NCBI RefSeq assembly: GCF_018200035.1
Contig: NZ_CP073582.1
Span: 128,821 to 192,820 of the forward strand
Length of the DNA stretch: 64,000 nucleotides
Direction of reading: 5' to 3'
Source: Sulfitobacter albidus
Lineage (GTDB): Bacteria > Pseudomonadota > Alphaproteobacteria > Rhodobacterales > Rhodobacteraceae
The first letter of the stretch is position 1; each line of letters begins with the position of its first letter. The position numbers were made by a program, and so were the translations under genes. This document shows positions 3,554 through 33,106 of the stretch, piece by piece. Under the pieces are notes generated by a model. That model was not told the DNA's origin. It saw nothing but the letters and a program-made list of their open reading frames with translations, and searched no databases.

Positions 3554-3568
3554 ATTCCCGACGGTTTT

Positions 3569-5908: not shown

Positions 5909-6100
5909 GGGTAAAACTTCATCGCTCTGAAACGGTTGCGTGAAGTGTACTGAATTCGGGGCAGAACCCAAGCGCATTCGCCGCAAACGGCCCTGTGTCT
6001 TGCGGTATCCGTGCGTGCAACCTTGCGAGACACGGATCCGATCTGTCGGCTTTTCGCACCCAGAAAACCGTGCTAGCGTCGATGCATAGCGGGGTTATTC

Positions 6101-6865: not shown

Positions 6866-7440
6866 TCCGGGCCGCGGTATTTGCCTTGGCGTTTATCCTG
6901 TCTGGGTGTCTGGCAAAGACGCCCGATAACCTGGTTTTGTCTTTTGGCACGTACAGCGCGGTCCCCGTGATGCTGGTCGATTTTCGGATCAACGACAGCA
7001 CCGGCGGTGCCTCTTTGCCATCGGTGCACTCCAGCAAGGCGGATCAGCGGCAAATCCGGACTTCGGGCAGAAATCTTGGGGCGTGGCCCGGGGGCAGGAC
7101 AGCGCGTGTGGAGGCGGTCTGGGTCGAGCTTTTGAGCAATCGCGCGTATCGGGCAGATGTCACGCTGGATGCAGGTGACCTGCCCCGCACGGCATCACTG
7201 GGGGAGACGGTCGAGCTCAAGGTGATCTTCGGGCCGCACGGTTTGTTGGTGATCGGCGGGGAGCGCACCGAGGCGAACCCCCAACCGATCGATCTGGAAA
7301 TGATCTGCGGGGCGCGCAGCCCCGCCAATGACCGTGACTACTCCAAAAACCCGCGCGAATTCGCGGGATTGTTCGAAGCTTACTCGGACACTTATCCGCC
7401 CGTATCCCCCCAGACCCACTGCCCGGAGCCGCGCGCATGA
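6862..7440 (+). CDS. Lipoprotein, candidate periplasmic immunity protein for the Tle1-like effector
   Basis: The start at 6862 gives a classic lipoprotein signal (MIRAAVFALAFILSGCLAK) with lipobox LSGC and Cys at residue 16. An upstream in-frame ATG at 6763 would bury this signal. The ATGA start overlaps the previous stop, and the gene's own stop overlaps the next start. The mature part (DFRINDSTGG, then VEAVWVELLSNRAYRADVTL) resembles the DUF2931 lipoproteins found beside T6SS lipases. I am only moderately sure of that family. A periplasmic lipoprotein next to a phospholipase effector is a common immunity arrangement. Confidence 0.72.
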   Translation: MIRAAVFALAFILSGCLAKTPDNLVLSFGTYSAVPVMLVDFRINDSTGGASLPSVHSSKADQRQIRTSGRNLGAWPGGRTARVEAVWVELLSNRAYRADVTLDAGDLPRTASLGETVELKVIFGPHGLLVIGGERTEANPQPIDLEMICGARSPANDRDYSKNPREFAGLFEAYSDTYPPVSPQTHCPEPRA

Positions 7441-9877: not shown

Positions 9878-10025
9878 CCGCGCTCATTCCCGTCAGCTTG
9901 CTTAACCATCCGCGCAGCCTGCCGAAAAAGCGACCCCGGCGCAACGGGTTGGAATGCGTTTGTCGTTTGCGGCCCGGTCCTATTACCGCATAATGTCAGA
10001 CGACAGCGTCCAGCCTGAGGCAGTG

Positions 10026-11023
10026 ATGGATTACAACACAGATCCCTGGGATCCCGAGGCCCGCCGTAAGGAGACGGCCACTGACGCGCCGGACCTCGAC
10101 GTGCGGGTGGTTCCGGATGTCGAACCCATCGCCCTCGCAGACGCAACGCGCACGCAGGCTTGCGTGCCGGTTGCGCTTCAAGACGCGATTTTTGGAACAC
10201 GCACAGCGGCGCGCTTCAGCTTTGCCGTGATAGACGGGGCCAAGATCGACGGCCTTGCCGAATTGCTTGAGACATCGGGCCTGCCGCATCGCTGCCTGTA
10301 CACCAAAGACAGCGGTTTGCAGGATGTAGCCCCCTGGCTTGTCGAACTCCACGATGGCACGCCCTTTGTACGCAGCCTTTTCACCGTGGGCGACGCCCCT
10401 TGGGCGCTTTGGGGGCGTGGTTGGGGAACGGTGCTGCGCAGCGCGATGCCGCTCGACGCACTCTACGCCCATCTTCGCCACTTTACTCAGGTCAGGCTCG
10501 ATGGTCCCAAGCCCGTCTTTTTCCGTTTCTGGGAGCCACGGGTCATGGCGCGCTACCTGTTCAATCATCACGACACAGCCCGTGAAAATCTGCTGGCCCT
10601 GATGGGGGAGGGAGAGATCATCTGCGTGGATTGGTGGAACGATATCGCCGTACACGCGCAAGCGCGCGTTGCCGCGGAGAGGCCGCGCCACTGGCCTCAT
10701 CTGCGAGAGGATCTGGATCGGATCCGGCTTCAGATCTACTGCGAGACCCTGACCGATGAGCTGGGCGAACGCGTCCCCCGCTGGGCGATATTGATAAATC
10801 CGAGCGGCTTGAAACAGTGACGGATCTGGTCATGGCGGCCCGGCAAATGGGATGGCGTTCGGAAAAATCGGTTGAGCGCTATTGCCTTGCCGCGATCCTG
10901 CTGGGCACACTGCCCCAGCAGGATCCGCGTTTCGACAAGGTCCTCAACAGCGACAAACACGAACTTGACCGCTCGCGCTTGACGCTCAAACTTGCCATTG
11001 ACCTCACGGGGGAAAGCGGATGA
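10026..11023 (+). pseudogene. DUF4123 T6SS effector-adaptor gene, broken by one frameshift
   Basis: The first frame (to 10820) holds the DUF4123 core: FSFAVIDGAKIDGLAELLET, APWLVELHDG, LRHFTQVR, RFWEP. The C-terminal helical module seen in the intact copy lies in the next frame, ending at 11023 (QMGWRSEKSVERYCLAAILL). Adding one C in the run at 10775-10779 gives a continuous reading PPLGDIDKSERLETVTDLV that joins both parts. The GTG at 10817 would otherwise start a free 68-aa protein. The ATG at 10026 has a GAGG box; an ATG at 9993 is possible. The end overlaps the next start (ATGA), so the adaptor is coupled to the candidate pore-former at 11020. Confidence 0.75.
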
Positions 11024-12330
11024 ATGCAATCAATTGCGACGACAGCGAAGCCCGCTGCGCAGAGGGCAACCTTTTTCGCTTTAACGGCGAAGACGCGAAT
11101 TTCACCGTAGAGGGTTTGGTGAACGGACAATCGACCGGTCCACTGCCCCACGGGGAGCGAATGATCCTGCCCAATACCCTTGCCGGAACAACCAATACAC
11201 TGGCGGTCCGACTGCGCGGGACCACGCATAACATATGCAATCTGAATGATTTCAACATTACATCCCCGCAGGATGTCGGCGTTTTGATCAGCGAAGTCGG
11301 TCCAAACACGCGCGGCGGTGGCGGCGGCGGGACAGAAGAGGATCTGCTCGTCTGCGAAATTCCGGCATCCCTGGAAAGCATGATCACGCAAGAGGGCGAT
11401 ATCGACATCGACACGGCGCCAAATGACGTGTTGCTGCGCGTCGCCTCCGCTATTCTGATTGTCCTCGAAGTCGTTGATGAGGCCACGCTGACGCAATCGC
11501 TTTTTGATGCAACCGATGGCTATGTCGATCTGCGCATGACCGGGACGGACGGCGCGCCTGCGGTGGCCGAGGCGGTTCAGGCCCTTGCCGGACGCAACGG
11601 ACGCGCGGCGCTGCGTGCCATCGTGCAGGGCGGTCAGGGTGCGCTGCGCGTGATGCGCAACGGCATCGGGTCGCTGGTCATCGTCGCCCGACTGAATTCA
11701 GGCATTTCGCGCCAATTGGCGGTCGGTGTTGCCGCCGGCCTGGCGCGGTCACGGTTGTCGACAGTCGTTGCGGGCACGCGCGGGCAGATAGGTGCACCCG
11801 GCACCGCACCCGCCATGTCGCGGGTGCCCGTCGTGGGGTTTGTGATCGTGGGGACCATCAACTTTTTGCAATGGTACGAAAATCCCAGCTCTCGCGGGGA
11901 TTGGAACCGTTTGTTCAGCATGCTGGTGGTCGACGGGACTGCATTGGTGATCTCGACCGTGGCTGCGAACATGGTCATCGGTGGCTTGATCACAATGCTG
12001 GGGGGCGCCGCGATGTTGACCGTTGGCACGGGCCTGCTGGTTGTCGGTGCGGGACTGGTCGCCGGGCTTGTTGTCGGGGCGATCGTGACCGCCGTGGCCC
12101 GACACTTCGGTCTCGAAGATCAGTTTTACAAGCTGATGGGAAAAGTCAGCAGCGGACTGGGGGCAGTGGCCCAGGGCGCGGTCGAGATTACCGGCAGATT
12201 TGCGGATACGCTCGGCCAGATCGCCGATGACCTGCGCGAAACCGGTGGCGAAATTCGGCGCGAGTGGAACAGCGGCTGGGGCCAGGTCAGACGAAATCTG
12301 ATGAGCGGGCGCGGCAGCGGATTATTCTAG
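11020..12330 (+). CDS. Glycine-rich membrane-inserting protein, candidate T6SS pore-forming effector
   Basis: Family not recognised. In this 436-aa protein the N-terminal third is soluble and Cys-containing, ending in a TRGGGGGGTEED linker (about residues 95-108). The C-terminal half has hydrophobic segments: VPVVGFVIVGTINFL (about 270-285) and a long Gly/Ala/Val stretch (about 308-365) with glycine-zipper spacing such as VVGAGLVAGLVVGAIV. It ends in an amphipathic helical region. There is no signal peptide. It is translationally coupled (ATGA) to a DUF4123 adaptor, the usual place for the adaptor's cargo, and is followed 2 bases later by a multi-spanning membrane protein. The toxin role is an inference from this context. 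Confidence 0.6.
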   Translation: MNAINCDDSEARCAEGNLFRFNGEDANFTVEGLVNGQSTGPLPHGERMILPNTLAGTTNTLAVRLRGTTHNICNLNDFNITSPQDVGVLISEVGPNTRGGGGGGTEEDLLVCEIPASLESMITQEGDIDIDTAPNDVLLRVASAILIVLEVVDEATLTQSLFDATDGYVDLRMTGTDGAPAVAEAVQALAGRNGRAALRAIVQGGQGALRVMRNGIGSLVIVARLNSGISRQLAVGVAAGLARSRLSTVVAGTRGQIGAPGTAPAMSRVPVVGFVIVGTINFLQWYENPSSRGDWNRLFSMLVVDGTALVISTVAANMVIGGLITMLGGAAMLTVGTGLLVVGAGLVAGLVVGAIVTAVARHFGLEDQFYKLMGKVSSGLGAVAQGAVEITGRFADTLGQIADDLRETGGEIRREWNSGWGQVRRNLMSGRGSGLF

Positions 12331-12332
12331 CG

Positions 12333-13112
12333 ATGCCGCTTCGGCACCTTCTCAGGACACGTTTCGCGCTTGGCGACCCGCCGGAAGCGATCCCCCCGAT
12401 CTTTCGCTGGCAGGTTTTGGTCATGGTGCTGATCCTGCCGTGCTATTTCCTTGCCTCACTGACGCAACTGGCCCAGCCATTCGCAGTATTCACCGATGCA
12501 GCGCCGCCGATTATCCGGGCGGCATCCGTGATGGGCACTGTCTTGTTGACGATCGGGGGAGTGATAGCGTGGGCCCTCGTGCTCGCCCGGCGCGCAATCG
12601 GCATCGGTGCGATGGTCGCGATGATGCTGTATGTGGGGCCAATGATTGCGGCCCTCCTGATCGCCCTTGTCCCCATCGGATCGCTGACACTGCTTGCCGG
12701 AACGACGTTGGTGATCGCGTGGTCCGTCCGCGCGCTCTTTCGGGTCAACGCTGGCGTCAGCGCACACACGCTTGAGGCGCTGCGGGCAGAAAGGCTCCGC
12801 GTCGGAGCCGATGGACACCCCGAATTCGTTCTGGCCGCAATGGTGCCGGGCGGCGGCAGGATCGCAACTGCCTTTGACGGATTGCGCAGCCCCTTTGCAA
12901 CGGTCTTGGAATTCGCAGGGGTTGCGCTGGTGGCGGCCACCGGGTTTGCGCTGGTGCCTGTCGCCATCGCCACGGATTTTGGTCAGCGTGGCCTTATTGC
13001 GCCACTCTTATGGGGGCTTTTATTGGCCATCATGCTGGGCGCACGTGGCACGGTAAATCAATGGCTCTTGCTGGCCCGCGTCATGGCAAAGGGTCCAATA
13101 CTCCCGGAATGA
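12333..13112 (+). CDS. Multi-spanning membrane protein, candidate immunity protein
   Basis: The ATG at 12333 lies two bases after the stop of the upstream effector candidate; an earlier in-frame ATG at 12264 lies inside that gene and was rejected. The 259-aa product has about six hydrophobic segments (VLVMVLILPCYFLASL, VMGTVLLTIGGVIAWALVLA, AMVAMMLYVGPMIAALLIAL, LAGTTLVIAWSV, and two near the C-terminus). Family not recognised. Immunity proteins against inner-membrane pore-formers are typically polytopic membrane proteins coded directly after the toxin, which fits here. Confidence 0.6.
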   Translation: MPLRHLLRTRFALGDPPEAIPPIFRWQVLVMVLILPCYFLASLTQLAQPFAVFTDAAPPIIRAASVMGTVLLTIGGVIAWALVLARRAIGIGAMVAMMLYVGPMIAALLIALVPIGSLTLLAGTTLVIAWSVRALFRVNAGVSAHTLEALRAERLRVGADGHPEFVLAAMVPGGGRIATAFDGLRSPFATVLEFAGVALVAATGFALVPVAIATDFGQRGLIAPLLWGLLLAIMLGARGTVNQWLLLARVMAKGPILPE

Positions 13113-13143
13113 CCATCGCGCGCCACCGCCGACGCCACGCGGC

Positions 13144-13407
13144 TCAGGGCAAGACCTTGGCGGTCGGGGACCCGGTAATGATAACGCCGCCATGCGATGT
13201 GGTCGATCCAAGGTAGGCCACCGGCTTTCCATCCGCAGTCGCCATTGATGACCCTTTCACGATGGTCGCTCCGCAGGCGGTCTTGTCCCCCACCCGCGCC
13301 ACGGGGAGCTGATCGCACGTGGATTGCGGGCTGCCCTTGATGATAGGCGTCACGATCTTGCAACGGGGACAGACGTGTTTGTCAGTCACGCGGGCAACGG
13401 GCAGCAT
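13144..13407 (-). CDS. PAAR-domain spike-tip protein
   Basis: This 87-aa protein has the PAAR pattern: LPVARVTDKHVCPRC at the start, then LPVARVGDKTACGATIVKGS, and SHGGVIITGSPTAKVLP at the end. PAAR proteins cap the VgrG trimer with a zinc-stabilised cone and sharpen the T6SS spike. The CPRC and CDQ/CGA cysteines are extra and might bind metal. It starts 5 bases after the vgrG stop, with its GAGGAG ribosome-binding site overlapping the end of vgrG. The two are surely one transcript and likely one spike. Confidence 0.9.
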   Translation of the reverse strand: MLPVARVTDKHVCPRCKIVTPIIKGSPQSTCDQLPVARVGDKTACGATIVKGSSMATADGKPVAYLGSTTSHGGVIITGSPTAKVLP

Positions 13408-13411
13408 GGCG

Positions 13412-15469
13412 CTACTCCTCTTTCTGGGTCAGGCATTCCTCGACCAGAGGCAACGCATCGCGCGCGGCGCCCTGCAACGTCGGAACCTGGGCGCTGCCGC
13501 CCCCGCCCATCGATACCGAGCCCTTGAGATTGATCCGCGCAGCCTCAAGCGTGATGCCGCTGCCGTCGATGGTGATCTTGCCACCCGGACCCTTGATCGT
13601 AAACTTTTCAAAGGCCATCAGCGTATGCTTGCCGGTGTTGTTGGTGATGGACTGCGTCACGTCGAGCGTGGATTTACCCAAAACGGTCTCTTCACGGTTG
13701 CGTCCGACCTGCACGATATGGTCGGCAAAGATATCCTGTTTGTGGATGTTGCCCACATTGTGCACGTGGTCCTTGCCGTATTTTTCCTGCTGGTTGCGCT
13801 TGACCTCGTAATAGACGTCCTGGCCGACGGTCTCGCGCTGGTCACGGCCCACGTTCATCGTTTCATCCTGGCCCACGACCTGACTGCGGTCGCGTGCGAT
13901 GGTGTTACTTTCGTCCCTGCCGATGGATTTGCGACGATCGTTCAGGATTTCGATCTCCTGATCCTTTTGGCCGTGCATATAGATCAGCTCTTCATCGCGT
14001 AGATCCTCGAACATCAGCTCATTGAAACCGCTGCCTTCGTGTGTATCGGTCTTGAAGGTCGAACGTGTCTTGTTGGCCGGTAGATCATAGGGCACCGGGT
14101 TCGCGCCGTTGTAGACACAGCCCGTGACCAGCGGTTTGTCGGGATCCCCCTCAAGAAACTCGACCACGACCTCCATGCCGATGCGAGGGATCACCATTCC
14201 GCCCCAGCCGCGCCCGGCCCAATTCTGGCTGACACGGCAGCGCATCGAATAAGCACCGTCAAGATCCCAATGAAACTGCACGAGAATCCTACCGTATTCA
14301 TCGCAGTCGATCTCACCGGAGCCCACGACGACAGCCGTTTGCGGGCCGTGCACCAGCGGCACACGGGTGCGCCGTTCGGGGCGCATCGGCGCAGTATCGG
14401 GCATCAGCACATAGGATCCTTCGTATGCCTCTTCGCCACCTTTCGCATCGCCCGAGCCGTAGGCCTGTGCGCGGTAGATATGCTGCGCCCGCAGACACAA
14501 CATACGCTGTCCTGTCACGCCCGGGATCGTGTCACCCGTCGGCGTGACACACCAACCCGCGCCAAGGCTCGCAACATCACCTTTCGCAAGATAGCGAATC
14601 GCCTGTCCTGTTTCAGCCTGCACGCGGGTATTGACGACGCCGCGCCCCTCGCTTTGCTTGAGGTAGTCGCCCGGCCAGTCGAAGCTTTCGATCTGGCCCT
14701 GTGCGTGCGTTGCCTCACCGACCTGATCGACCTCTTGCGCAGCGTGTGGTGATTTGAAGTTATATTCTGTCAGCCGTACTGCACCCGTGGTCAGGCGCGA
14801 ACCGCCGCGGAAGCCGTCAAAATGCTCCTCATCGTGCATGTGATAGCCTTCGACGCCGTAGTAGGGTCGGTTGCCGCCGGAAACATCGGGCTGCTGGCTC
14901 ACACGGTCCGTCAGGACAAGCTTGTGATTGCCGTTCTCATGCACCCAGTGCCAGGTGATGCCAAACCGCTCCATCTGGCGGCGGGCAAAATCCGCGTCGC
15001 TTTCGTTGTATTGAACGGTATATTCGAGGGTCGGATAGTCATCGGTCAATTCCAGCTCAAGATGAGGATTCCCCAACTCGGCATAGACGCCAAGAAGCTC
15101 CTTGAGGATCTGATCTACGCTCATCCGGTGAAAAATCCGCTGATTGCGGCGCAGGCCCGCCACATGCAACCATGGCCGAAGAACAATGTCGTAGCGGTTG
15201 CCGTTTTCGTCCATCCCGCACCATTGCGCGGCGGTGACAATCCCGTCGAAATAGCGCTGCCCACCCGCAACATCCATCTCGATCGTTGCGTGTGTGCCGA
15301 GCAATGCGTTGAGATCGACATCGGGATCGGCGGATAACGCTTCAACCGTCCAGGTAAAATCGCCCGACAACTCCTCGTGCCCATCCATACGAAGCAATAC
15401 CAGCGTGTTGATCGCCAGTGACGTGGTCAATCGCGCGCGGCGGTTTTCCTGAATAAAAGGGACGTTCAT
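13412..15469 (-). CDS. vgrG: Type VI secretion spike protein VgrG
   Basis: This 685-aa protein has the full VgrG order. The gp27-like N-terminal region contains ATIEMDV, RRNQRIFHRMSVDQILKELL and YNESDADFARRQMERFGITW. Next comes a gp5-type OB fold with VPLVHGPQTAVVVG, YGRILVQFHWD and VSQNWAGRGWGG. A C-terminal needle of short repeats of the type GRDxxxxVGxD follows, then the DUF2345-like KGPGGKITIDGSGI. It forms the trimeric spike that carries effectors. The ATG at 15469 was chosen for its GGAG box; the frame stays open to 15544. No hcp or tss gene is nearby, so this is an orphan spike locus with PAAR downstream. Confidence 0.95.
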   Translation of the reverse strand: MNVPFIQENRRARLTTSLAINTLVLLRMDGHEELSGDFTWTVEALSADPDVDLNALLGTHATIEMDVAGGQRYFDGIVTAAQWCGMDENGNRYDIVLRPWLHVAGLRRNQRIFHRMSVDQILKELLGVYAELGNPHLELELTDDYPTLEYTVQYNESDADFARRQMERFGITWHWVHENGNHKLVLTDRVSQQPDVSGGNRPYYGVEGYHMHDEEHFDGFRGGSRLTTGAVRLTEYNFKSPHAAQEVDQVGEATHAQGQIESFDWPGDYLKQSEGRGVVNTRVQAETGQAIRYLAKGDVASLGAGWCVTPTGDTIPGVTGQRMLCLRAQHIYRAQAYGSGDAKGGEEAYEGSYVLMPDTAPMRPERRTRVPLVHGPQTAVVVGSGEIDCDEYGRILVQFHWDLDGAYSMRCRVSQNWAGRGWGGMVIPRIGMEVVVEFLEGDPDKPLVTGCVYNGANPVPYDLPANKTRSTFKTDTHEGSGFNELMFEDLRDEELIYMHGQKDQEIEILNDRRKSIGRDESNTIARDRSQVVGQDETMNVGRDQRETVGQDVYYEVKRNQQEKYGKDHVHNVGNIHKQDIFADHIVQVGRNREETVLGKSTLDVTQSITNNTGKHTLMAFEKFTIKGPGGKITIDGSGITLEAARINLKGSVSMGGGGSAQVPTLQGAARDALPLVEECLTQKEE

Positions 15470-15739
15470 TCGGTATCTCCGAATTAAAGGGCATGGTTTC
15501 GTGATCAATCTATCAAGGAATCGCAGGGATGTCGCCCCCGTCAAGCGTTAGGTTGGAAACCTTGTTAGAACTTCGCGCCCCGTTTGGCGAAAGCCCGGCG
15601 CAAAGCGTCTCGAGGAACCGTAGCGACCTACCTCTTCCCAGTTAAAGGGTGGCAACAGCTTACATCGACTTTTGCCTATTCACCGTGTGGCTTCAGGGAA
15701 AACTAACAAACCTCTGATAGCTGCCAAAGCCCTGAAAAA

Positions 15740-23086: not shown

Positions 23087-25105
23087 ATGAAAGATCACTG
23101 CCCCTATAGCCAGCCGACACCCTCGCCTGATGCACGCGCGCATGTGGCCGAAGGTCACGCACGGCGCGCACAGGCGGCAGATCACGCCGCCACACCGCTG
23201 GTGTCGGCGCACAACGGCGAGGCCGAGGATTTTGCCCAAAGCTGGCCTACGAATTTTACCAAAGGGCTGCCGCACGATTGCTACGGCAATGTCGACCCGA
23301 CGGCCTATGCCACGTTCTTTCGCGAGGTTGCGCGGCCGACCTACACGAGCCCGAACGGGCAACGCCGCGCCGCGTTCGATGTGCCGCGCTACACGGGCTC
23401 GTTCCGCACGGCACCCACCCGCGGCGAGACCCCATTTGACTGGCGCGGCTGGGAAAGCCCACTCGCAGGCCATCAGTTCACGCTCGAAGGTCCCGGCCCT
23501 GCCGCCGTCGGCATGGCACCCGCGCCGCGCCTTGGCTCGGATGAGCTTGCGGGCGAGATGGCCGAGCTTTATGCCATGGCGCATCTGCGCGATCTGTCGT
23601 TCGAGGATATGCGCGACGGGGCGGGTGATGCCGGTGTTGTCACCGATGCGCTGTGCAAATTGCCCTGGTTCCAGCCCGGCGGCGATGCGCGCGACGCGGA
23701 TGGCGCACCGCTTGATCCTGTCTCGACCGCGCGGCGGGCCCGCGACGGTGGCCCACTGTGCACACAAACGCTTTTTCGCGGTTCCAGCCCCGGCTGTGCG
23801 GCGGGGCCGTATCTGTCGCAATTCATACTGCAGGGCCACGACAGCCGCGGCGGCGGTCGGGCACAAATGGAAGCTGTGCAGCAAATCCACGGCCGCGCCC
23901 GGCGCAGTGACGGCACCCGCATCAGCGCCCGCGACGGGATGATCCTGTTTGGCGCGCAGCGCATTGATCAGCGGATCGAGCCGCAGACGCCCGGCGTCGA
24001 CTATCTGCGCGACTGGGCCGAATGGCTCGACGTCCAGAACGGCGCCAACACCAAGAACGAACAGGCGTTCGATCCCGATATCCCGCTCAAGTTCATTGAA
24101 ACGCCACGCGATCTGGCAAGCTACGTGCATTTCGATGCGCTTTATCAGGCCTATCTCAACGCCTGCCTGCTGATGCTCAGCTGGGGCACGCCGATGGATC
24201 CGGGCTTGCCCGAGCCGAACACATCGCTCAGCCGCACACCCTTTGCCACATGGGGCGGGCCACATATCCTGACGCTGGTGACAGAGGTCGCCACCCGCGC
24301 GCTGCGCGCCGTGCGCCGTCAGAAATTTCAGATCCACAACCGTGCCCGCCCGGAAAAGCTGGGTCAGGTAGCAAGCCTTGTCGCCAACGGTCACGGCGAC
24401 ACGCTGGGGCTGGCGAGTGATCCGGCGCAGGCACACCTGGAAAAGCTGGGTGCGGCAAAGCACCACGATTTCGACCTGCTGCACGCCATCGCACAGGCTG
24501 ACGAATCCCCGCAATTTGCCCAAAGCGAAGGGGCGTGGGGCGGTTTGCCCGACAACGGTTGCAATCTGTTGCTCCCCATGGCCTACCCCGAAGGCTCGCC
24601 CATGCATCCTTCCTACGGGGCCGGTCACGCGACGGTGGCGGGCGCTTGCGTCACGGTGCTCAAGGCGTTTTTTGCCACACGCGCCACCGACGGCAGCGCG
24701 CTGACGCTCGAACAGGCTGGCGCGCCTGCGGTGTTCGTGCCCGCGCCGGGCGGTCTGGCGCTGAGCGAATGCACGCGGCAGGGCGACACCACGCAAGCGC
24801 TTACGTTGGAGGGAGAACTCAACAAGCTCGCCGCCAACATCTCCATCGGGCGCAACATGGCCGGTGTGCACTTCTACAGCGACTATTTCGACAGTCTGCG
24901 GCTGGGCGAGCGTATCGCCGTCGGCATCCTGGCAGAGCAGATGGTAACCTATACCGAAGGTGTGACCCTCTCGCTCGACAGTTTTGACGGGGACGCACTC
25001 AAGATCCACGGTGACGGGCTGGGCGGGTTTGGCGTCGACGTGGCTGGGGGCGATTACGACAGCTGGCGGCTGCGCCACGTGCCGCAATCCCCCGCGGGAG
25101 TGTAA
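23087..25105 (+). CDS. Vanadium-dependent bromoperoxidase/haloperoxidase
   Basis: This 672-aa protein has an acid-phosphatase-type core in its C-terminal half. Vanadate-binding residues expected from algal enzymes are seen as Lys413 and Arg421 (QKFQIHNRARPE), the HPSYGAGHAT motif with His514, and Arg589/His595 in ISIGRNMAGVHFYSDY. These enzymes use hydrogen peroxide to oxidise bromide or chloride to hypohalous acid. The residue before Gly-His is Ala512, where characterised algal enzymes have Ser. No signal peptide is obvious. A strong AGGAGG box and a stem-loop lie just upstream. A 70-aa membrane protein gene starts 3 bases after the stop, and a terminator closes the pair. Confidence 0.93.
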   Translation: MKDHCPYSQPTPSPDARAHVAEGHARRAQAADHAATPLVSAHNGEAEDFAQSWPTNFTKGLPHDCYGNVDPTAYATFFREVARPTYTSPNGQRRAAFDVPRYTGSFRTAPTRGETPFDWRGWESPLAGHQFTLEGPGPAAVGMAPAPRLGSDELAGEMAELYAMAHLRDLSFEDMRDGAGDAGVVTDALCKLPWFQPGGDARDADGAPLDPVSTARRARDGGPLCTQTLFRGSSPGCAAGPYLSQFILQGHDSRGGGRAQMEAVQQIHGRARRSDGTRISARDGMILFGAQRIDQRIEPQTPGVDYLRDWAEWLDVQNGANTKNEQAFDPDIPLKFIETPRDLASYVHFDALYQAYLNACLLMLSWGTPMDPGLPEPNTSLSRTPFATWGGPHILTLVTEVATRALRAVRRQKFQIHNRARPEKLGQVASLVANGHGDTLGLASDPAQAHLEKLGAAKHHDFDLLHAIAQADESPQFAQSEGAWGGLPDNGCNLLLPMAYPEGSPMHPSYGAGHATVAGACVTVLKAFFATRATDGSALTLEQAGAPAVFVPAPGGLALSECTRQGDTTQALTLEGELNKLAANISIGRNMAGVHFYSDYFDSLRLGERIAVGILAEQMVTYTEGVTLSLDSFDGDALKIHGDGLGGFGVDVAGGDYDSWRLRHVPQSPAGV

Positions 25106-25108
25106 TCG

Positions 25109-25321
25109 ATGCTCAAGGTTCTGCCCACCCGCCTGCCCCTACGTGTCGAGGCGCCGACTGTCCGGTCGCTGGGGCATGCGCTCTCAACCGTGCTGATCCT
25201 CATGATGATGGGGCTGATTGCCCTTGTCATCCTCTACCTCATTTCGTGCGTTCCCGACCTTTTGCGCACGTATTCCCATGACGGGGCAAGACTGGGTGTG
25301 AGCTTCTTCCCTCACACCTGA
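25109..25321 (+). CDS. Small single-span membrane protein in the haloperoxidase operon
   Basis: This 70-aa protein has one clear transmembrane helix (about residues 27-48, STVLILMMMGLIALVILYLI) flanked by a basic N-terminal segment with several Arg residues. Its ATG lies 3 bases after the haloperoxidase stop and a strong terminator follows 18 bases after its own stop, so it belongs to that operon. Family not recognised. It may anchor or assist the peroxidase, but that is inferred from position only. Confidence 0.65.
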   Translation: MLKVLPTRLPLRVEAPTVRSLGHALSTVLILMMMGLIALVILYLISCVPDLLRTYSHDGARLGVSFFPHT

Positions 25322-25338
25322 CGCTGCCCTGCCACTGG

Positions 25339-25376
25339 GGGACCGCGGTGCACTCCCCTCCGCGGTCCCTCTTTTT
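25339..25376 (+). terminator. Rho-independent terminator of the haloperoxidase operon
   Basis: A perfect 10-bp GC-rich stem (25339-25348 with 25360-25369) and an 11-base loop are followed by TCTTTTT. It ends the haloperoxidase/small-membrane-protein transcript and separates it from the unknown gene at 25400. Confidence 0.9.
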
Positions 25377-25399
25377 CCATCATAGAACCGGAACGCTAC

Positions 25400-26644
25400 A
25401 TGCCCTACTCCTTCTCTCCCGGTCAGGCCGATCCCGGCATAAACCCGGATACGCTTGCTGCTTGGCAGGGCCAGATCACGCGGACGCTCGCGCAGCTGGA
25501 CGCTGCGGCCCCCAATCCATTGCTCTGCGTCGATCCGCACGACCTCGAGGCGCGGGGTCCCGCAATTCCTGTCACATGGTCCGGCAGCCCACGCGACGCG
25601 CGCGACTGCCTCGGCGACACGCTCGCAGCAGAGCTTGCGGATTGCGGATGGCCGGGCCGGGCCGAACTGCAAAACGAGCATCTGGAGTATACCCTGCTGA
25701 TGCGCCCTGATGCCTCCGGCACCCTGCGCCCGAAAAGATTTGTCGCCACGACCGAGCTGGCTGAGTGGTGGCGGCTGATGGCGCTGCACGACATCGACGG
25801 ATTTCTGCGCAGCATTCACCGCACCCTGCGCCAGCGCTACAGCTGTGCAGCACTTTTCGGGATCAGTGCCGATTGCTGGCGTGGTCTGTCAATCGACCGC
25901 CGGACCGCGCTTTTTGACCGGCGGCTGATCGGGCGCGGGCCACATCAGCCACCTGAACATCCGCTGAACGTGCAGCACGCCCTGTTTCTGAGCAATCCGG
26001 CAAATTCGCTGATCGCTTTTCTCGAAATGGTGCATGCGGGCGCGCGCGCCTTCGTGAGTGGCACTGCAGACCGCCCGCGCCGCGCGCGCATCGAGGAAGT
26101 TTTCGCCGCGACCGACCGGGCCGACGCCTATTGCCGGGCTGCCCCGGCGGCCCTGACACGCGGGATCCGTGATCTGATCCTCCCGGACCCAACTGGGCCT
26201 GCACGCCGCGCGGCGATGGCCGAACCGTTCGGCATTTATATGCACGGGATCGATACCCAGCGCTTTACGCTCGGCGGCGCCCCCCTGCCCGGAAGCTGGA
26301 CACGCTTTAGCCGGGGGCGCGACGGGCGGTTCATGCGTCTCGAATTCGGGCCGACGGATGCCGAACCTCTCTTCTTGGATGATATTCGCGTGGGCACGCA
26401 AACCGGAGCACCACCGCTGCGCGGCTACGATCTGGCCGCTGCAATCTCCGTTGGGCCCATCCTGTGCGTCGAAGGGCGCGCCTGCCAAGAGGCGCCGCGC
26501 ACCCACGTACCCGCCTGCGCGCCCGGCACGCTGGTTTGCGGCCTGCCCGACAGCCCGCGCAGCCGGACACTCGCGGCTTTTGCCGATCTGTTCGAGATGC
26601 CACCCGATTGGAACCACCTCAACGGAGTGCTTCGGGTTGGCTGA
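25400..26644 (+). CDS. Uncharacterised 414-aa protein next to a YcaO gene
   Basis: Family not recognised. The protein is soluble, rich in Arg, Ala and Pro, with no signal peptide or membrane span. Cysteines are scattered singly (LLCVDPHD, YSCAALFG, ADCWRG, ILCVEGRACQE, VCGLPD). It follows a terminator, so it needs its own promoter in the short gap, where none is obvious. Its last 26 bases overlap the convergent YcaO gene. It may be a partner in the putative peptide-modification locus, but I see no E1-like or TfuA-like motif in it. Confidence 0.6.
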   Translation: MPYSFSPGQADPGINPDTLAAWQGQITRTLAQLDAAAPNPLLCVDPHDLEARGPAIPVTWSGSPRDARDCLGDTLAAELADCGWPGRAELQNEHLEYTLLMRPDASGTLRPKRFVATTELAEWWRLMALHDIDGFLRSIHRTLRQRYSCAALFGISADCWRGLSIDRRTALFDRRLIGRGPHQPPEHPLNVQHALFLSNPANSLIAFLEMVHAGARAFVSGTADRPRRARIEEVFAATDRADAYCRAAPAALTRGIRDLILPDPTGPARRAAMAEPFGIYMHGIDTQRFTLGGAPLPGSWTRFSRGRDGRFMRLEFGPTDAEPLFLDDIRVGTQTGAPPLRGYDLAAAISVGPILCVEGRACQEAPRTHVPACAPGTLVCGLPDSPRSRTLAAFADLFEMPPDWNHLNGVLRVG

Positions 26645-27590
26645 GCGTCCTCTGTTCGACCGGTACGGCCTTGAACACCGGCAACGGCAGCTCCTGTGCC
26701 GTCATGTCAAACACCGCCACGGGTTGGCCAAGCACATCCGCAGCCGCGCGCAGCGCATCACCAAGGCTCGGATTGGCAGGGCTAATCCCGCTCGCCTCAG
26801 TGTCCGCATCGGGGCAGGCTGGGCGATCCGCACGGGCCCCACGGTAAAGGGCAAAAAGCCGCGCTTCGGTTTGGGCCAGGCCCTGTGCCAACACGCCGCG
26901 ATGCTCCAGCGCGGCCATGTTGCGCCAGGACACGATCGCCTCCTCGATTGCGCGGCGCACGGTTTCTTCAAGGGCACCCCCAAAGGCACTGCCGTAGGTC
27001 GGACGCCCGCCGTCGAAATCCGCGCAAACCGCGCGCACCAGTACCCCGACCCCCGCATACGGCGTTACGTGCAGATCAATCCCGCGCAAATGCGTCTTAA
27101 GCCAATCGGCGAGCGGGCTTTGCCAGCCCGTCAGCCGGTGGGTGAGCCCCCGTGCCTCCAGCCCGTGTTCGAGACATTCCAATACCGCCCACATCGCCGC
27201 CGCTTCCGGCGAGGGACCGGCTGCCGCCCCTTTGGAGGACACAGTTCCCGCCGTCCCCGGAGCCCCCAGCGCAAGCGCAGTACGCGGCATCCTGTAGATC
27301 TCGCCATCGGACGCCATCACACTTTCGAGCGTTTCGCTGGCATCGCTGCTGAATTGCAGGGCATAGCGTTCGATTGCCTCAAACCCGGCGAGCCGCGCTG
27401 CAGCCGGCGCCGTGGCACCACAGCCAAACGCGACGCGCAGGCCCACCGCATCCTCGGGCGGCCGCGCGCCTGCGCGCAGATGCACGATGCGCACCGCAGC
27501 ACTCAACGGCGCATTGGGCGGCACAGCGAGGGCCTGCGCGCCGGAAATCAGCCCGCGCTGCTCGGCCAGATCAATCCAATCATCCGTCAT
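26619..27590 (-). CDS. YcaO-domain protein (ATP-dependent backbone modification of a peptide or protein)
   Basis: This 323-aa protein has YcaO hallmarks: ARLAGFEAIERYAL (Glu71, Glu74, Arg75), SKGAAAGPSPEAAAMWAVLE leading to a second E-x-x-E (Glu138, Glu141), and YGSAFGGALEETVRRAIEEA (Glu216/217), which correspond to the Mg-ATP site glutamates. The end region VAVFDMTAQELPLPVFKAVP resembles stand-alone or TfuA-associated YcaOs. YcaO enzymes phosphorylate backbone amides to form azolines, thioamides or amidines. The frame extends upstream to 27842, but the ATG at 27590 is the sensible start because the rest would lie antisense to the peptide gene. It is divergent from that gene by 70 bases. No E1-like or TfuA gene was found in the window. 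Confidence 0.8.
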   Translation of the reverse strand: MTDDWIDLAEQRGLISGAQALAVPPNAPLSAAVRIVHLRAGARPPEDAVGLRVAFGCGATAPAAARLAGFEAIERYALQFSSDASETLESVMASDGEIYRMPRTALALGAPGTAGTVSSKGAAAGPSPEAAAMWAVLECLEHGLEARGLTHRLTGWQSPLADWLKTHLRGIDLHVTPYAGVGVLVRAVCADFDGGRPTYGSAFGGALEETVRRAIEEAIVSWRNMAALEHRGVLAQGLAQTEARLFALYRGARADRPACPDADTEASGISPANPSLGDALRAAADVLGQPVAVFDMTAQELPLPVFKAVPVEQRTLSQPEALR

Positions 27591-27660
27591 TTCACTTTCA
27601 TAAATGACATACACCGCCCTATAGTACCACGGGGCACAACACCAAGAGGGGGAACGCCAG

Positions 27661-27960
27661 ATGGCGAGACTAGAGCTAAATCCAGAATTCAAACTCAAGG
27701 ACCTTGGCAAGGAGGTCCTGAATGCTGGCCGCGCAGCCGCGGCGGGCGACATCAGTATCGCGGAAGAGGCCGAGGAACGTATCACGGGCATGTTCCCCGA
27801 AGAAAAGCGCAGGCCCACGATCAAATTCGTGCGCGATACCAAGGACCTTATCCATATCGTGATCCCCTATCTGCCCGATGGCGGCGGTGCGGGCAGCTAC
27901 GCGGACGAGCTTGCGGGCGAGGCGATGGGCCAGATCGTGGTCTACGGCTGCGGCCGGTAA
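27661..27960 (+). CDS. 99-aa peptide, candidate RiPP precursor for the YcaO enzyme
   Basis: A strong AGAGGGGG box precedes the ATG. The product has a charged, helix-prone first half (LKDLGKEVLNAGRAAAAGD, AEEAEERITGMF), a strand-like middle (KDLIHIVIPYLPDG), a glycine-rich turn (DGGGAGSY) and an acidic helix. It ends in IVVYGCGR with a single cysteine (Cys97). A leader-like front and a short Gly-Cys-Gly tail beside a divergent YcaO gene suggest a ribosomally made, modified peptide. Family not recognised, and it may instead be a small folded regulator. Reading continues 22 bases later into a transcription-factor gene on the same strand. Confidence 0.6.
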   Translation: MARLELNPEFKLKDLGKEVLNAGRAAAAGDISIAEEAEERITGMFPEEKRRPTIKFVRDTKDLIHIVIPYLPDGGGAGSYADELAGEAMGQIVVYGCGR

Positions 27961-27964
27961 ACGC

Positions 27965-27977
27965 GTCTCCTAGAGAC
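27965..27977 (+). promoter_or_regulatory. Small inverted repeat between peptide and regulator genes
   Basis: A 5-bp arm at 27965-27969 is mirrored at 27973-27977 across three bases, in the 22-base gap between the peptide stop and the next ATG (27983). It is too short to be a terminator and has no T-run. It could set the ratio of peptide to regulator translation, or be chance. Confidence 0.25.
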
Positions 27978-27982
27978 ACCGC

Positions 27983-29602
27983 ATGGCCGCGGCAAAAACC
28001 AAGATATTTCTGTCCGGCCCGCTGCAAATTATCTGCGACGACGGGCGCGACGCAACGCCGCCTGGCACCAAGGCCAAGGCGCTGCTTGCGCTCGTCGTCC
28101 TTTCCAAAAACGCGGTACGCAGCCGCGCATGGTTGCAAGACCACCTGTGGAGCACCAGCGCCCCCGCGCAGGGGGCGGCCTCCCTGCGAAAGGAACTCAG
28201 CCGTCTGAGTAAGTTTTTCGGGGCGCAAGATCTGTCCTGGTTCACCATCGCACGCGATACCGTCAGTATTGATCTGGGCGCGGTCGAGGTCGACATATTT
28301 GACACTGACCTCCCCCCCGACCGGGCCGAGCTGCTCGAAGGGCTCGACGTAGGGGATCCCGAGTTCGAGGACTGGCTCGCCATCGAGCGGCAGGCCTTCT
28401 GGAGCGTCGACACAGGCGAAGGCGACGACACCCCGATTCCCGCACAACGCCCCGCCCATTGGGGCCGCCAGCGCCCCATCCTCGTGCTGGAGCCGATGGA
28501 GACGGTGGGCGACACTGCGGACGTCGCCATCACCGCCGCCGCCATCCACGACGAGCTGATGTTCCTGCTGGGCACGCTTTCGGACGTAATCGAACTCCGC
28601 GATGCCCGCCGCCAGACCGCCCCCGTCGAAGGCTATATCCTCAGCGGCAGCGTGGTGGGGGCAGATACGCTGCGGGTGGGCGCGCAGCTGACGTCAACCG
28701 CCGATGACAGTTGTCTGTGGAATGGCCGCTTCCGCTTCCGGCAGGGTGACAGTTTCGACGCCGTCGAAGAAATCGCGATGGAGCTTGTCGCAGCGCTACA
28801 ACTGCGTCTGCGCGACGGGCACTGGGCCGACATCTGGTCCGCGCGCGCCACATCGACCGAAGCCTGGACCGAATTCCAGCGCGGCCGTGTCAAGGAAGGT
28901 CATACCACCTACGACGGGCTCTCCACGGCGATCAGGCACTACGAACACTGTCTGACACATGACCCCGAATATCTGCCCGCGCAGGTCGCGATCGGGTTTT
29001 GCAAGCTGGACCTCATCCGCCTTGGCATGGCCCGCGATCCCGACAGTTTTCTCTCGGAAGTGCAGACACTATCGGCGCGCCTTCGGGCGGAGCATCCCGA
29101 TGACGCCTATTGCATCGCCCTCGAGGCGTTCACGCATAACGTCGCAGGGCACACCGAGGAAGCCTGCGAACTGATGCGCCCCGTGATCGACCGCTGGCGG
29201 AACAGTCCCGAATTGCTGGGATACTACGGGACGCTTTTGGGATACGACGGGCGCTATGAGGCCGAAATCGCGGTCTGCCGAAAGGCCCTCGCCCTGACGC
29301 CGCACCCACCGATCTGGATCGAATCAAATCTGGCGATCTCCATGGCGCAGGTGGGGGACAAGGCCGCCTGGCATCATGCGCACAACGTTCTACGCAATGA
29401 CGCCGGAAACGTACGTGCGCGTATGGTTCTTTGCGCCCTTTCGGCCGAGGCCGGAAACACCTCGCTCGCGCGTCGCCACGCCCGACGGATCCTTGAGCTT
29501 GAGCCCGATTTCACCGCCGAAACATGGGCCTGGGCGCCGTGTTTTCGCGACCCCGATCATCACGCTCATATGGCCCGGCTGCTGGCATCCGCCGGGCTGT
29601 AA
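27983..29602 (+). CDS. Winged-helix transcriptional regulator with TolB-N-like and TPR regions (CadC/SARP type)
   Basis: In this 539-aa protein residues 1-95 form an OmpR/SARP-like winged helix (KIFLSGPLQIICDDGRDATP, KAKALLALVVLS, RSRAWLQDHLWS, AAASLRKELSRLSKFFG in outline). Residues about 160-290 resemble the TolB N-terminal-like domain of CadC-type regulators (RPILVLEPM, EGYILSGSVVG, WNGRFRFRQGD). The rest carries TPR-type helices (AIRHYEHCLTHDPEYLPAQ, AEIAVCRKALALTPHPP, ARRHARRILELEPDF). No membrane span is seen, so it is cytoplasmic. It lies 22 bases after the peptide gene and could sense the peptide or a modified product through the TPR region. That link is inferred. Confidence 0.72.
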   Translation: MAAAKTKIFLSGPLQIICDDGRDATPPGTKAKALLALVVLSKNAVRSRAWLQDHLWSTSAPAQGAASLRKELSRLSKFFGAQDLSWFTIARDTVSIDLGAVEVDIFDTDLPPDRAELLEGLDVGDPEFEDWLAIERQAFWSVDTGEGDDTPIPAQRPAHWGRQRPILVLEPMETVGDTADVAITAAAIHDELMFLLGTLSDVIELRDARRQTAPVEGYILSGSVVGADTLRVGAQLTSTADDSCLWNGRFRFRQGDSFDAVEEIAMELVAALQLRLRDGHWADIWSARATSTEAWTEFQRGRVKEGHTTYDGLSTAIRHYEHCLTHDPEYLPAQVAIGFCKLDLIRLGMARDPDSFLSEVQTLSARLRAEHPDDAYCIALEAFTHNVAGHTEEACELMRPVIDRWRNSPELLGYYGTLLGYDGRYEAEIAVCRKALALTPHPPIWIESNLAISMAQVGDKAAWHHAHNVLRNDAGNVRARMVLCALSAEAGNTSLARRHARRILELEPDFTAETWAWAPCFRDPDHHAHMARLLASAGL

Positions 29603-29661
29603 CTGGACGCAGACGCCCGCGCGCCCTAGGCTTTGCCCACCCCACCAACCAAGCGGACCCC

Positions 29662-31368
29662 ATGACCCAGAAAGACCCGCATAACCGTCAGCATTTGATC
29701 GAAAGCATCTATCGCATCGCGCTTGAGCCGCAGAGCTACGATGATTTCATCGGCGAATGGGACACCTTCATCCGCAAGCGGCTCGACGATCTGACCACGC
29801 TGCGCGCCAGCACCGAGGAAGGGGCACTCGACACAGATGAGGTGGCGGGGCATTTCACCCTCGCGATGCAGCTGCTTGAGCAGGCAGGTCGGCCCGAGAT
29901 TCGGGATGCCGACACCGGCACGCATCCGCGCATGATGGTGGCGGGAGACGGCACGCTGTTGTGGAGCAATGCCTCCGCCGAGCGCCAGCTCGGCGCGCGC
30001 AGCGGCATGTCGATTGAGGATCTCAAACTCGGGGCGCAAGCCTGCACCGATATTCTGTCCCTTCCGAAAAAGACCGATGACGCTGTCAGGATCGTGCAAA
30101 TGCCAACGCGGAAGGGCGCGCAGTTGCCGATGGCCTTTCGCTGCACGTCTGGAAGGGGGACGGACCGGCTTATCGAGGCGCGCCAGATGCGCCAGCACTG
30201 GCCAAAGGCGACCGATGCCCTGTTGGAGCAGGGATTTGGTCTTAGCCCCTCGGAAACTGCGATCTGCGCGCATATCGCCGCTGGACGCGGCGCGTCTGAA
30301 ATCGCCACCCAGCGTGACAGCGCGGTGGGCACCGTGCGTACCCAGATCAAACGCATCCTGCAAAAAACCGGCTGCGCGGGTCAGGTCGAGCTTGTCGGGC
30401 TTTTGTACGCCACCATGCGCCTTGCCGAACGGGAGACGATCCGCACCGTGCCCACGGCGCGCATTCCCGACAGGGTTCTGTCAATTGATCTGCCTGGCCG
30501 CACCATGCCCGTTGAGACCTTTGGCGATCCCGATGGAACCCCGGTGATTTTCTTTCACGGGATGCTGGACGGCAACACGATGACCCACGCCATGCGCGCC
30601 CTGCTTGAACGGCATGGCTTCTGCCTGATCTGTCCCGTGCGCCCCCATTTCGGCACCGCTGCACCGGACAACAGCGGCCCGATCCAGACAGCGCCCACGC
30701 GTTTTGCCCGCGACATCGCCACGCTGCTGGACCAGACCGGACAGCGTGACCCTATCCTGCTGGGCCACATGGGCGGGGCGATCTACGCCTACGCTGCCGC
30801 GGCACACCTGGGCACCCGCGCGCGGGGCGTCCTATCTGTTGCAGGTGCCGTGCCGCTGGTTTCGGGTGCGCAGTTTCGCGCCATGTCCGCCCGCCAGCGG
30901 GTTGTCGCGCTGACCGCGCGCTACACCCCACAATTGCTGCCCTTTGTGGTCCGCGCGGGTATCAGCCAGCTCGACAACAAGGGCGAACGGCAATTCATGA
31001 ATTCGCTCTACCAGACCTGCCCTGCGGATCTGAACGTCGCCGCCGATCCCGACATCGGCGATCTGCTCTTTTCCGGCTATCGCTTTACCGTCGCACAGGG
31101 GCACCGCGCGTTTGAGACCGATAGCTATCACGTGGTCCGCGACTGGTCCGCCAGCGTTTCCGCCAGCGCCCAGCCGATTGAACTGGTGCACGGGGTGCAC
31201 GACCCGGTCATCAGCTACGCCTCGGTCAAGGCATTTCACGACCGGCTGGGCGGGCGGGCGCAACTGACAACGATGCCCGAATCGGGGCAGTTGATCTGCT
31301 ATACGCATCCCGAAACCGTCATTGCGGCCCTTGAGCGGCTGCGTGATACGCCCGTTTCACCCGAGTGA
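29662..31368 (+). CDS. LuxR-type regulator fused to a degenerate alpha/beta-hydrolase (copy 1)
   Basis: This 568-aa protein has an N-terminal region (1-95, ESIYRIALEPQSYDDFIGEW), a PAS-like stretch (about 90-180, MVAGDGTLLWSNASAERQLG), a LuxR-type helix-turn-helix (about 190-255, LSPSETAICAHIAAGRGASE, VGTVRTQIKRIL) and an alpha/beta-hydrolase fold (about 270-565, HGMLDGNTMTH). At the nucleophile elbow the motif is GHMGG, with Met370 in place of Ser. The catalytic-His position reads SGQLICY (Gln543). The acid Asp514 remains. Such a fold may bind a ligand without hydrolysing it. The next gene is a close paralogue starting 5 bases after this stop. The ATG at 29662 was chosen because it begins the region shared with the paralogue. 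Confidence 0.8.
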   Translation: MTQKDPHNRQHLIESIYRIALEPQSYDDFIGEWDTFIRKRLDDLTTLRASTEEGALDTDEVAGHFTLAMQLLEQAGRPEIRDADTGTHPRMMVAGDGTLLWSNASAERQLGARSGMSIEDLKLGAQACTDILSLPKKTDDAVRIVQMPTRKGAQLPMAFRCTSGRGTDRLIEARQMRQHWPKATDALLEQGFGLSPSETAICAHIAAGRGASEIATQRDSAVGTVRTQIKRILQKTGCAGQVELVGLLYATMRLAERETIRTVPTARIPDRVLSIDLPGRTMPVETFGDPDGTPVIFFHGMLDGNTMTHAMRALLERHGFCLICPVRPHFGTAAPDNSGPIQTAPTRFARDIATLLDQTGQRDPILLGHMGGAIYAYAAAAHLGTRARGVLSVAGAVPLVSGAQFRAMSARQRVVALTARYTPQLLPFVVRAGISQLDNKGERQFMNSLYQTCPADLNVAADPDIGDLLFSGYRFTVAQGHRAFETDSYHVVRDWSASVSASAQPIELVHGVHDPVISYASVKAFHDRLGGRAQLTTMPESGQLICYTHPETVIAALERLRDTPVSPE

Positions 31369-31372
31369 TCGC

Positions 31373-33106
31373 ATGTCCGGCCCTGTCCCTCCTGCCCCGG
31401 ATCAAAATAGCTCTGACACGTCGGAGCTGATTGAAAGCATCTACCGTATCGCACTGGAGCCGCAAACCTACGATGATTTCATGGGCCAGTGGGACGACTT
31501 CATCCAGGGCCAGATCGACCGGTTGCACCAGTTGCACACAAATACCGCGCGGAAAAATACCGTCGAGAATACGGAGATCGAGAACCATTTCGGCATCGCC
31601 CTGCGGCTCTTGGAGCAGGCGGGCCGACCCGAGGCCCGACAGGTCGATCCGGCACACCGTACCCGTTTGCCACAGATGATGTTTTCGGGAAGCGGTGCAG
31701 TCGTCTGGCATAACAACGCCGCGCGCACCGCGTTCGATCTGCGGCCCGGCCGGATGCTGGACGATTTCACCATGTCGGTCCCGCACCGCGCCCAGCTTGA
31801 CGCGCTGTTCTCCGGGCAATCGCCGTCGCGGGTCGTGCTGGTCAAACTGGCGCACGGCACGGATAGCCCGCCGCTGCCCATCGCGTTTCAACCCAGCCCG
31901 CACGACGGCGGCGAAGCACTTTTCATGGCCACCGAAGTGCGTCAACGCTGGCCCGAAAGCACAGGCGCGCTTCTGGCAAAAGGGTTCGCGCTAACCGAGG
32001 CCGAAATCGATATCTGCTCGCATATCGTCGAAGGGCATGCCGCCTCTGACATCGCCAGCGCGCGCGGGGCTGCCCTGGGAACGGTGCGCACGCAGATCAA
32101 ACGAATCCTGCATAAAACCGGCTCCGCCACACAGGTCGAACTTGTGGGACTGTTGCATGCGACGATGCGGTTGGCCGAAAACGAAGCCCCCCCCGCGCAG
32201 CCGCAGGCCCGCATCCCCGACAGCGTCATCAACGTACAGCTTGCCGAACGGCGGATGCCGGTTGAAACCTTCGGAGACCCCAAGGGGCGGCCGATCATTT
32301 TCTTCCACGGAATGCTCGACGGGAACACCATGACACGAGAAATGCGCGCCGAACTGGTTGCACGTGGTTTTTATCTGCTGGCGCCGGTGCGGCCTTTTTT
32401 CGGTATGGCTGAACCCGACGACGGCGCGGGGATCGAGGATGCCCCCCAACGTCTTGCAGGCGACATTGAAGCGATGGTGAAACAACTCAGGATCAAGGCG
32501 CCGGTGTTGATGGGGCACATGGCCGGCGCGGTCTACAGCTTTGCCGCCGCCGGACGCCTCGGCAGACGGGTGCGTGGAATCGTAAATGTCGCGGGCGGTG
32601 TTCCGATTCATTCCGCCGCGCAATTCGCGACCATGTCCGTGCGCCAGCGCATCGTCGCGCTGACCGCGCGCTATACGCCCCGCGTGCTGCCCTTTGTCAT
32701 CCGTGCGGGCATGCAGCAGCTCGATAATCGTGGTGAGCAACAGTTCCTGCAATCGCTCTACGAACATGCCCCGGTGGACATGGCGACACTGCGCGATCCC
32801 GAGCTGCGCGAGACGGTGATTGCCGGGTACCACTTTACCATCGCACAGGGGCATCGCGCGTTCGAAATCGACAGCTATCATGTGGTGCGGGACTGGTCCG
32901 AACTGGTCACGCAAAGCAGTGTCCCGGTCGAGTTGGTGCACGGCATCCATGATCCGGTCGTCTCGATCGCTTCTGTCGAGGCATTCGCGCAGACACTTGG
33001 CGCACGCGCGTGCCTTACCCGTGTCGAGGATGCAGGCCAACTCCTGTTCTATGCGCAGCCCAGAACCATCCTCGATGCAGTGGATCGATTGATGGACGGC
33101 CCATAG
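31373..33106 (+). CDS. LuxR-type regulator fused to a degenerate alpha/beta-hydrolase (copy 2)
   Basis: This 577-aa tandem paralogue of the preceding gene has the same domain order and about half or more identical residues across its length (ESIYRIALEPQTYDDFMGQW; VGTVRTQIKRILHKTGSATQ; VETFGDP, FFHGMLDGNTMT). The same two catalytic positions are lost: GHMAG has Met383 instead of Ser, and DAGQLLFY has Gln556 instead of His, while Asp527 is kept. The shared losses mean the fold was already non-catalytic before duplication or is kept so by selection. It starts 5 bases after copy 1 and is surely co-transcribed. The ligand and DNA targets are unknown. Confidence 0.8.
   Translation: MSGPVPPAPDQNSSDTSELIESIYRIALEPQTYDDFMGQWDDFIQGQIDRLHQLHTNTARKNTVENTEIENHFGIALRLLEQAGRPEARQVDPAHRTRLPQMMFSGSGAVVWHNNAARTAFDLRPGRMLDDFTMSVPHRAQLDALFSGQSPSRVVLVKLAHGTDSPPLPIAFQPSPHDGGEALFMATEVRQRWPESTGALLAKGFALTEAEIDICSHIVEGHAASDIASARGAALGTVRTQIKRILHKTGSATQVELVGLLHATMRLAENEAPPAQPQARIPDSVINVQLAERRMPVETFGDPKGRPIIFFHGMLDGNTMTREMRAELVARGFYLLAPVRPFFGMAEPDDGAGIEDAPQRLAGDIEAMVKQLRIKAPVLMGHMAGAVYSFAAAGRLGRRVRGIVNVAGGVPIHSAAQFATMSVRQRIVALTARYTPRVLPFVIRAGMQQLDNRGEQQFLQSLYEHAPVDMATLRDPELRETVIAGYHFTIAQGHRAFEIDSYHVVRDWSELVTQSSVPVELVHGIHDPVVSIASVEAFAQTLGARACLTRVEDAGQLLFYAQPRTILDAVDRLMDGP

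Follow-up and report, generated by a model that had tools for sequence, protein, structure and literature searches.

A YcaO enzyme, a small protein with a constant C-terminal cysteine, and a TPR regulator as a candidate modification cassette in Sulfitobacter albidus and its relatives

A gene for a YcaO enzyme and a divergent gene for a 99-amino-acid protein (P99) were found side by side in Sulfitobacter albidus and linked in all related loci. The same cysteine near the C-terminus of P99 was present in every relative, which suggests that P99 and the YcaO enzyme work as a pair with a dedicated regulator; on comparison of the loci, these three genes are the constant core of the cassette. With moderate confidence, P99 is read here as the dedicated substrate of a YcaO enzyme that needs neither an E1-like nor a TfuA partner, the predicted product being a thiazoline at Gly96-Cys97. 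The likely substrate and its site could be read from comparison alone, as one cysteine, a fixed spacing, and two proteins. If correct, this reading would add a partner-free YcaO that acts on a protein-sized partner at its C-terminal tail and is associated with a TPR regulator of its own and, in a single subtype, with a vanadium bromoperoxidase as well.

Layout, linkage, and distribution of the cassette

In the window (the whole 64,000-nucleotide stretch of DNA analyzed), the YcaO enzyme of 323 amino acids is encoded on the minus strand at 26619..27590 and P99 on the plus strand at 27661..27960, with the regulator of 539 amino acids (27983..29602, plus strand) starting 22 bp downstream of P99. 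Translation of the YcaO gene most likely begins with the ATG at 27590, which is in register with the first methionine of its relatives; a 407-amino-acid frame opening at a TTG was disfavored by the same alignment. The divergent intergenic stretch (27591..27660) is 70 bp long, as the first-pass annotation had it, and a comparison of 16 divergent loci gave a gap of 67-70 bp in 14 of them, 89 bp in one, and 96 bp in one with an uncertain YcaO start. On the other side, the 3' ends of the YcaO gene and the plus-strand gene for a 414-amino-acid protein (25400..26644) overlap by 26 bp.

After removal of duplicate copies, the set comprised 18 loci, where 10 had been found via the YcaO enzyme and then checked for P99, and the others via profile scans for either gene. 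Because the P99 proteins of loci L037-L039 differ at one residue only, the number of independent loci is closer to 16. The earlier proposal that the two genes form a pair was borne out, as P99 and YcaO were linked in 18 of the 18 loci and divergent in 17; in the remaining locus (L012), the YcaO gene was rearranged yet still linked, about 1.7 kb beyond the regulator. The layout typical of RiPPs, with a precursor-like gene adjoining a modifying enzyme, was thus present in every locus. The P99 frame had been taken for a gene from its translation, and its homologues in 17 further loci and signs of purifying selection agree with this. The dN/dS ratio was 0.02-0.21 in eight of 11 pairs, a rough value for four of the eight because dS was above 2, and the other three pairs were saturated at synonymous sites.

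The distribution of the cassette is patchy, and it was probably acquired by transfer. None of the 57 other genomes searched in the genus contained the window YcaO, and a search of 98 relatives returned a match in its own genome only. A YcaO profile search of the genome collection identified 10 loci in Ruegeria, Shimia, Silicimonas, and Phaeobacter. Of 394 family genomes scanned, seven contained a member of the YcaO clade (at least 265 bits), and the same seven contained P99, which was detected by profile in six of them and, in the one that the profile missed (G393), by tblastn beside the YcaO gene. A wide occurrence of P99 without YcaO, set beforehand as refuting the pairing, was not seen, since all six profile-positive genomes of the 394 have the enzyme. 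Three further family genomes encode a distant YcaO (38.8-46.8 bits), and P99 was not found there. In the genus of genome G140, eight of 54 genomes contained P99, each with the YcaO, the regulator, and the 414-amino-acid gene alongside. A scan of 289 genomes across the class added one more P99, in genome G731 of another family, where a divergent YcaO gene is cut by the contig end.

A relative of the regulator, a gene that the first-pass annotation did not mention, was observed downstream of P99 in 18 of 18 loci, the count being composed of 13 of 13 loci compared, L037-L039, L073, and L072 (C-terminal part). Regulator matches did not exceed 90 bits in 59 relatives that lack this YcaO, and in nine other cassette genomes, the gene beside P99 was itself the best match (138-828 bits); by these scores, the regulator is specific to cassette genomes. 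TPR repeats were found in the C-terminal part of the window regulator. Its front is weakly SARP-like (17.8 bits to the SARP AfsR model NF053617, far below the cut-off of 1430), and the relative in L019 scored 16.6 bits for PF00486, below the cut-off of 26.2. Because these SARP and winged-helix matches lie below cut-off, DNA binding by the regulator is only presumed. In G731, the only regulator match with an E-value up to 1e-10 adjoins P99, the aligned part being residues 162-539 (164 bits). The G731 protein has a nucleotide-cyclase domain as its front (PF00211, 27.0 bits, above the cut-off of 21.9), so that, relative to the window regulator, the front differs and the TPR end is retained.

This difference in the front with a conserved TPR end leads to a tentative and, on balance, unlikely extension of the substrate reading, by which the module would be an intracellular signaling device rather than a producer of antibiotics. 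The YcaO enzyme would mark the Gly-Cys backbone at the C-terminus of P99, and the TPR receptor would read the mark. The output of the receptor would be interchangeable, with the presumed DNA-binding SARP-like front in the family of the window and the adenylate/guanylate-cyclase front in the distant genome G731. The bromoperoxidase and 414-amino-acid protein, the alpha-oxoamine synthase relative, and other accompanying genes would then represent the regulated output.

The P99 tail, the YcaO enzyme, and the predicted modification

Nine positions of P99 were invariant across the 18 loci (M1, A2, R3, G16, D59, P69, E87, G90, and C97). The spacing Gly-x6-Cys from Gly90 to Cys97 was identical in all of them, and the proposed target, Cys97 (codon 27949..27951, plus strand), is the sole cysteine of the window protein, as had been pointed out before. 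The tail cysteine was the only one in seven of the 18 homologues. It stood third from the end in 17 of the 18; in L018, an arginine precedes it and one residue instead of two follows, which makes it the penultimate residue. Averaged over positions, the commonest residue had a share of 0.81 at positions 1-6, 0.74 at positions 85-97, 0.59 at positions 54-70, and 0.44 over the last two residues. Hence, the tail Gly-x6-Cys, together with the N-terminal MAR, was shown by the alignment to be under the strongest constraint. The expectation that the Gly-Cys-Gly tail is the most conserved part of P99 was confirmed for the tail around Cys97, besides MAR, but only half of the claim for the flanking glycines stood: the glycine before the cysteine was retained in 17 of 18 loci, and the one after it in only 10 of 18.

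The assignment of the enzyme itself was upheld, with PF02624 (35.4 bits, cut-off 25.7) as its sole Pfam domain above cut-off. The ATP-site glutamates noted in the first reading were invariant in 16 of 16 aligned sequences, the window included; they form the Glu-x-x-Glu motifs E71/E74-R75 and E138/E141, with E217 in addition, and line up with those of TruD and LynD. The third-motif glutamine of LynD and TruD could not be placed in the alignment. Against the SagD model TIGR03604, the window enzyme scored 8.3 bits, below the cut-off of 219. The YcaO of G731, from the most distant pair, scored 115.9 bits for SagD and 41.3 bits for the McrA-thioamidation model, both values being below cut-off for a protein cut by the contig end.

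That no E1-like or TfuA partner is visible was confirmed in a scan of eight window proteins (23087-33106), none of which matched E1-like/Ocin-ThiF or TfuA. An E1-like/Ocin-ThiF partner was likewise missing among the ten flanking proteins of L003, the flanks of other loci having been scanned in part. TfuA (PF07812) was searched for in 12 of 15 cassette genomes: nine of the 12 contained none above cut-off, with no match at all in eight and a sub-cut-off match on contig C1 in the genome of the window. The other three had a match above cut-off, always on a contig other than that of P99. By this distribution, TfuA is not part of the cassette, and the simplest reading of the gene content is a YcaO that acts partner-free.

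Under the preferred reading, the front and middle of P99 would dock straight onto the YcaO enzyme, and the C-terminal tail would enter its active site. The Gly96-Cys97 amide would be activated by ATP and then attacked by the Cys97 thiol, so that the antepenultimate residue of P99 would become a thiazoline with a loss of 18 Da. A thiazoline fits because the conserved cysteine has a glycine before it, as a cysteine azoline would need. The enzymes that vary between subtypes may act downstream, on or with the product; candidates are the bromoperoxidase and the 414-amino-acid protein in the window, and elsewhere the alpha-oxoamine synthase relative, which is accompanied by an acyltransferase-like gene in some cases only. 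No protease or transporter common to all loci was found, and the product may thus stay in the cell, either as a modified protein or as a short released peptide. Among the ten flanking proteins of L003, which are partly common to other Ruegeria loci, no protease or transporter was identified, and two were without any match.

Most YcaO proteins are of unknown function according to one genome-mining study (PMC8442711). The streptamidine family described there resembles the present cassette in having a standalone YcaO and a short precursor close to it and in having been found by genome mining. It differs in occurring in Actinobacteria and Firmicutes, in precursors without Ser/Thr/Cys-rich regions, and in the transporters and hydrolase of its main cluster type (PMC8442711). 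The thioamidated RiPPs of YcaO-TfuA clusters (PMC8120280) also have the YcaO beside the precursor, but TfuA is missing from the cassette here. In the open-licence PMC literature, no paper was found on YcaO together with Rhodobacteraceae, Roseobacter, or haloperoxidase, nor one that links YcaO, a TPR regulator, and a vanadium bromoperoxidase. The cassette was undescribed in the titles and abstract beginnings among the matches listed for YcaO, SARP, and divergent precursors in that literature, and the one paper found there on YcaO, RiPPs, and Ruegeria mentions Ruegeria only in a passage on Nif11-like peptides in TfuA-related clusters.

Alternative readings of the pair

An unlikely alternative is that P99 is a remote RiPP precursor of the proteusin/NHLP type, with a nitrile-hydratase-like leader and a core of about eight residues after Met-Gly-x that would be cleaved, exported, and tailored by the bromoperoxidase. 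Two P99 alignments, A3 with 11 members and A6 with 17, were compared with nine NHLP leaders (L040-L043). The middle of P99 was matched by hhalign at 74% (E 2.7e-5, score 31.6) with A3 and at 48% (score 27.3) with A6. In the controls, run for A6 only, the highest score among 100 column shuffles was 20.8, and reversal of the columns gave 9.9. A nitrile-hydratase-like leader is thereby suggested, not established. Nitrile hydratase alpha repeats, however, matched at only 0.5% (A3) and 0.3% (A6), and a combined set of NHLP leaders and these repeats lowers the match to 42% and 19%, respectively. The NHLP leader model (TIGR03793) gave no NCBIfam match at E-values up to 10 in any of the 11 members, no PDB profile matched P99, and its AlphaFold model consists of helices without strands at low confidence. 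The Gly-Gly at the helix end is found in only part of the family and is Gly-Gln in the window, and no protease or transporter common to the loci was found.

YcaO enzymes recognize NHLPs in folded form as their substrates, and the azoline-forming NHLP system MprC/MprE, in which the YcaO is able to read a folded NHLP leader, shares with the P99 cassette a YcaO and a long structured precursor with a cysteine in its C-terminal part (PMC12455567). MprC differs in having an RRE and an FMN oxidase partner, and the YcaO here has no recognized extra domain in its 323 amino acids. The constancy of the P99 tail also counts against the preferred substrate reading, as RiPP cores of related classes, those of NHLPs included, are described as hypervariable (PMC4603692). 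Near 1435-1734 of both L042 and L043, the NHLP leaders are followed, after a Ser-Ala-Gly end, by a core of about five residues, LCCCW.

It is quite unlikely that the YcaO makes a thioamide instead, in which case the site would most likely be Gly96 and Cys97 would serve recognition or sulfur delivery. Gly96 is kept in 17 of 18 loci, and a precedent exists in the E. coli YcaO, which is reported to work without an RRE and TfuA and to use sulfide to thioamidate the folded protein uL16 at Met82 (PMC13063428). The reading of a folded protein by a YcaO without RRE or TfuA is common to both systems, and in this respect the E. coli enzyme is also a precedent for the preferred partner-free reading, although its product is a thioamide. 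Unlike in E. coli, where the YcaO acts on a ribosomal protein whose gene is not in its vicinity (PMC13063428), the likely substrate here is a neighbor, and the constant residue is a cysteine. Against a thioamide, the foremost conserved residue is this cysteine (18 of 18), the cassette is without TfuA, and the G731 enzyme is a better match to SagD than to the McrA-thioamidation model. On these sequence comparisons, a thiazoline ranks first as the most likely product and a thioamide second, a choice that is weakly decided because the window enzyme scores only 8.3 bits for SagD and the argument from G731 is indirect.

It is similarly improbable that P99 is a helper rather than the substrate, namely a swinging-arm sulfur carrier whose tail cysteine gives sulfur to the YcaO enzyme, with another protein, such as the regulator, being modified. 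DsrC and TusE are swinging-arm sulfur carriers. One invariant cysteine near the C-terminus of a conserved, protein-sized partner would suit such a role, as would the fact that no leader family was recognized for P99, but the Pfam and NCBIfam results of 11 P99 members contained no DsrC/TusE match. The 414-amino-acid protein, for its part, is missing from five of the seven family genomes with the YcaO and cannot be the general substrate. Finally, an adjacency of YcaO and P99 by chance, without functional link, is barely tenable: the two genes are linked in all 18 loci, which come from two families of the class, the flanks vary from genus to genus, and in L012 the linkage persists despite a rearrangement.

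Genes that vary around the core

The 414-amino-acid protein carries the precomputed Pfam label PF26676, and no fold match was found for it. The first-pass annotation had offered this protein as a possible partner of the YcaO, which the distribution does not support: it is present in two of the seven family genomes that have the YcaO. Its profile matched only these two of the 394 genomes scanned, which leaves five with the YcaO but without this protein. In the window and in L003-L009, the gene is accompanied by a vanadium-dependent bromoperoxidase homologue of 672 amino acids (23087..25105, plus strand in the window). The 414-amino-acid protein and the bromoperoxidase therefore mark one subtype only, and the former is not an obligate partner. 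The window bromoperoxidase matched 5lpc with an E-value of 4.9e-112, and in the alignment it keeps QKFxxHxRxRPE, HPSYGAGHA, and GRxxAGVH, which we take to be the vanadate-binding motifs.

L019 (597-4801) represents a second subtype of the module. Downstream of its YcaO gene and in the same orientation lie genes for an alpha-oxoamine synthase relative (serine-palmitoyltransferase/BioF-like), a weakly FeeM-like protein (15.0 bits, below the cut-off of 27), and a 259-amino-acid protein without family assignment. One further genome carries a related synthase, in L073, where it adjoins the regulator. The neighbors in L011 and L012 differ from those of the other loci and gave no Pfam match above cut-off.

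In L020, a fusion gene (2342-5548), which joins a reductive dehalogenase (TIGR02486, 199 bits against a cut-off of 160) to a reductase/ferredoxin part, ends beside the YcaO gene, and a bromoperoxidase relative (9025-10776) lies downstream of the regulator. Two of the three vanadate motifs are not kept in this relative. In the window, two tandem proteins with a match to a LuxR-type helix-turn-helix and an alpha/beta hydrolase end (29656-33106) adjoin the cassette and have no match in ten related loci. Farther away, the window contains what are presumably type VI secretion-like genes (4474-15544), including a VgrG-like protein at 13412-15544.
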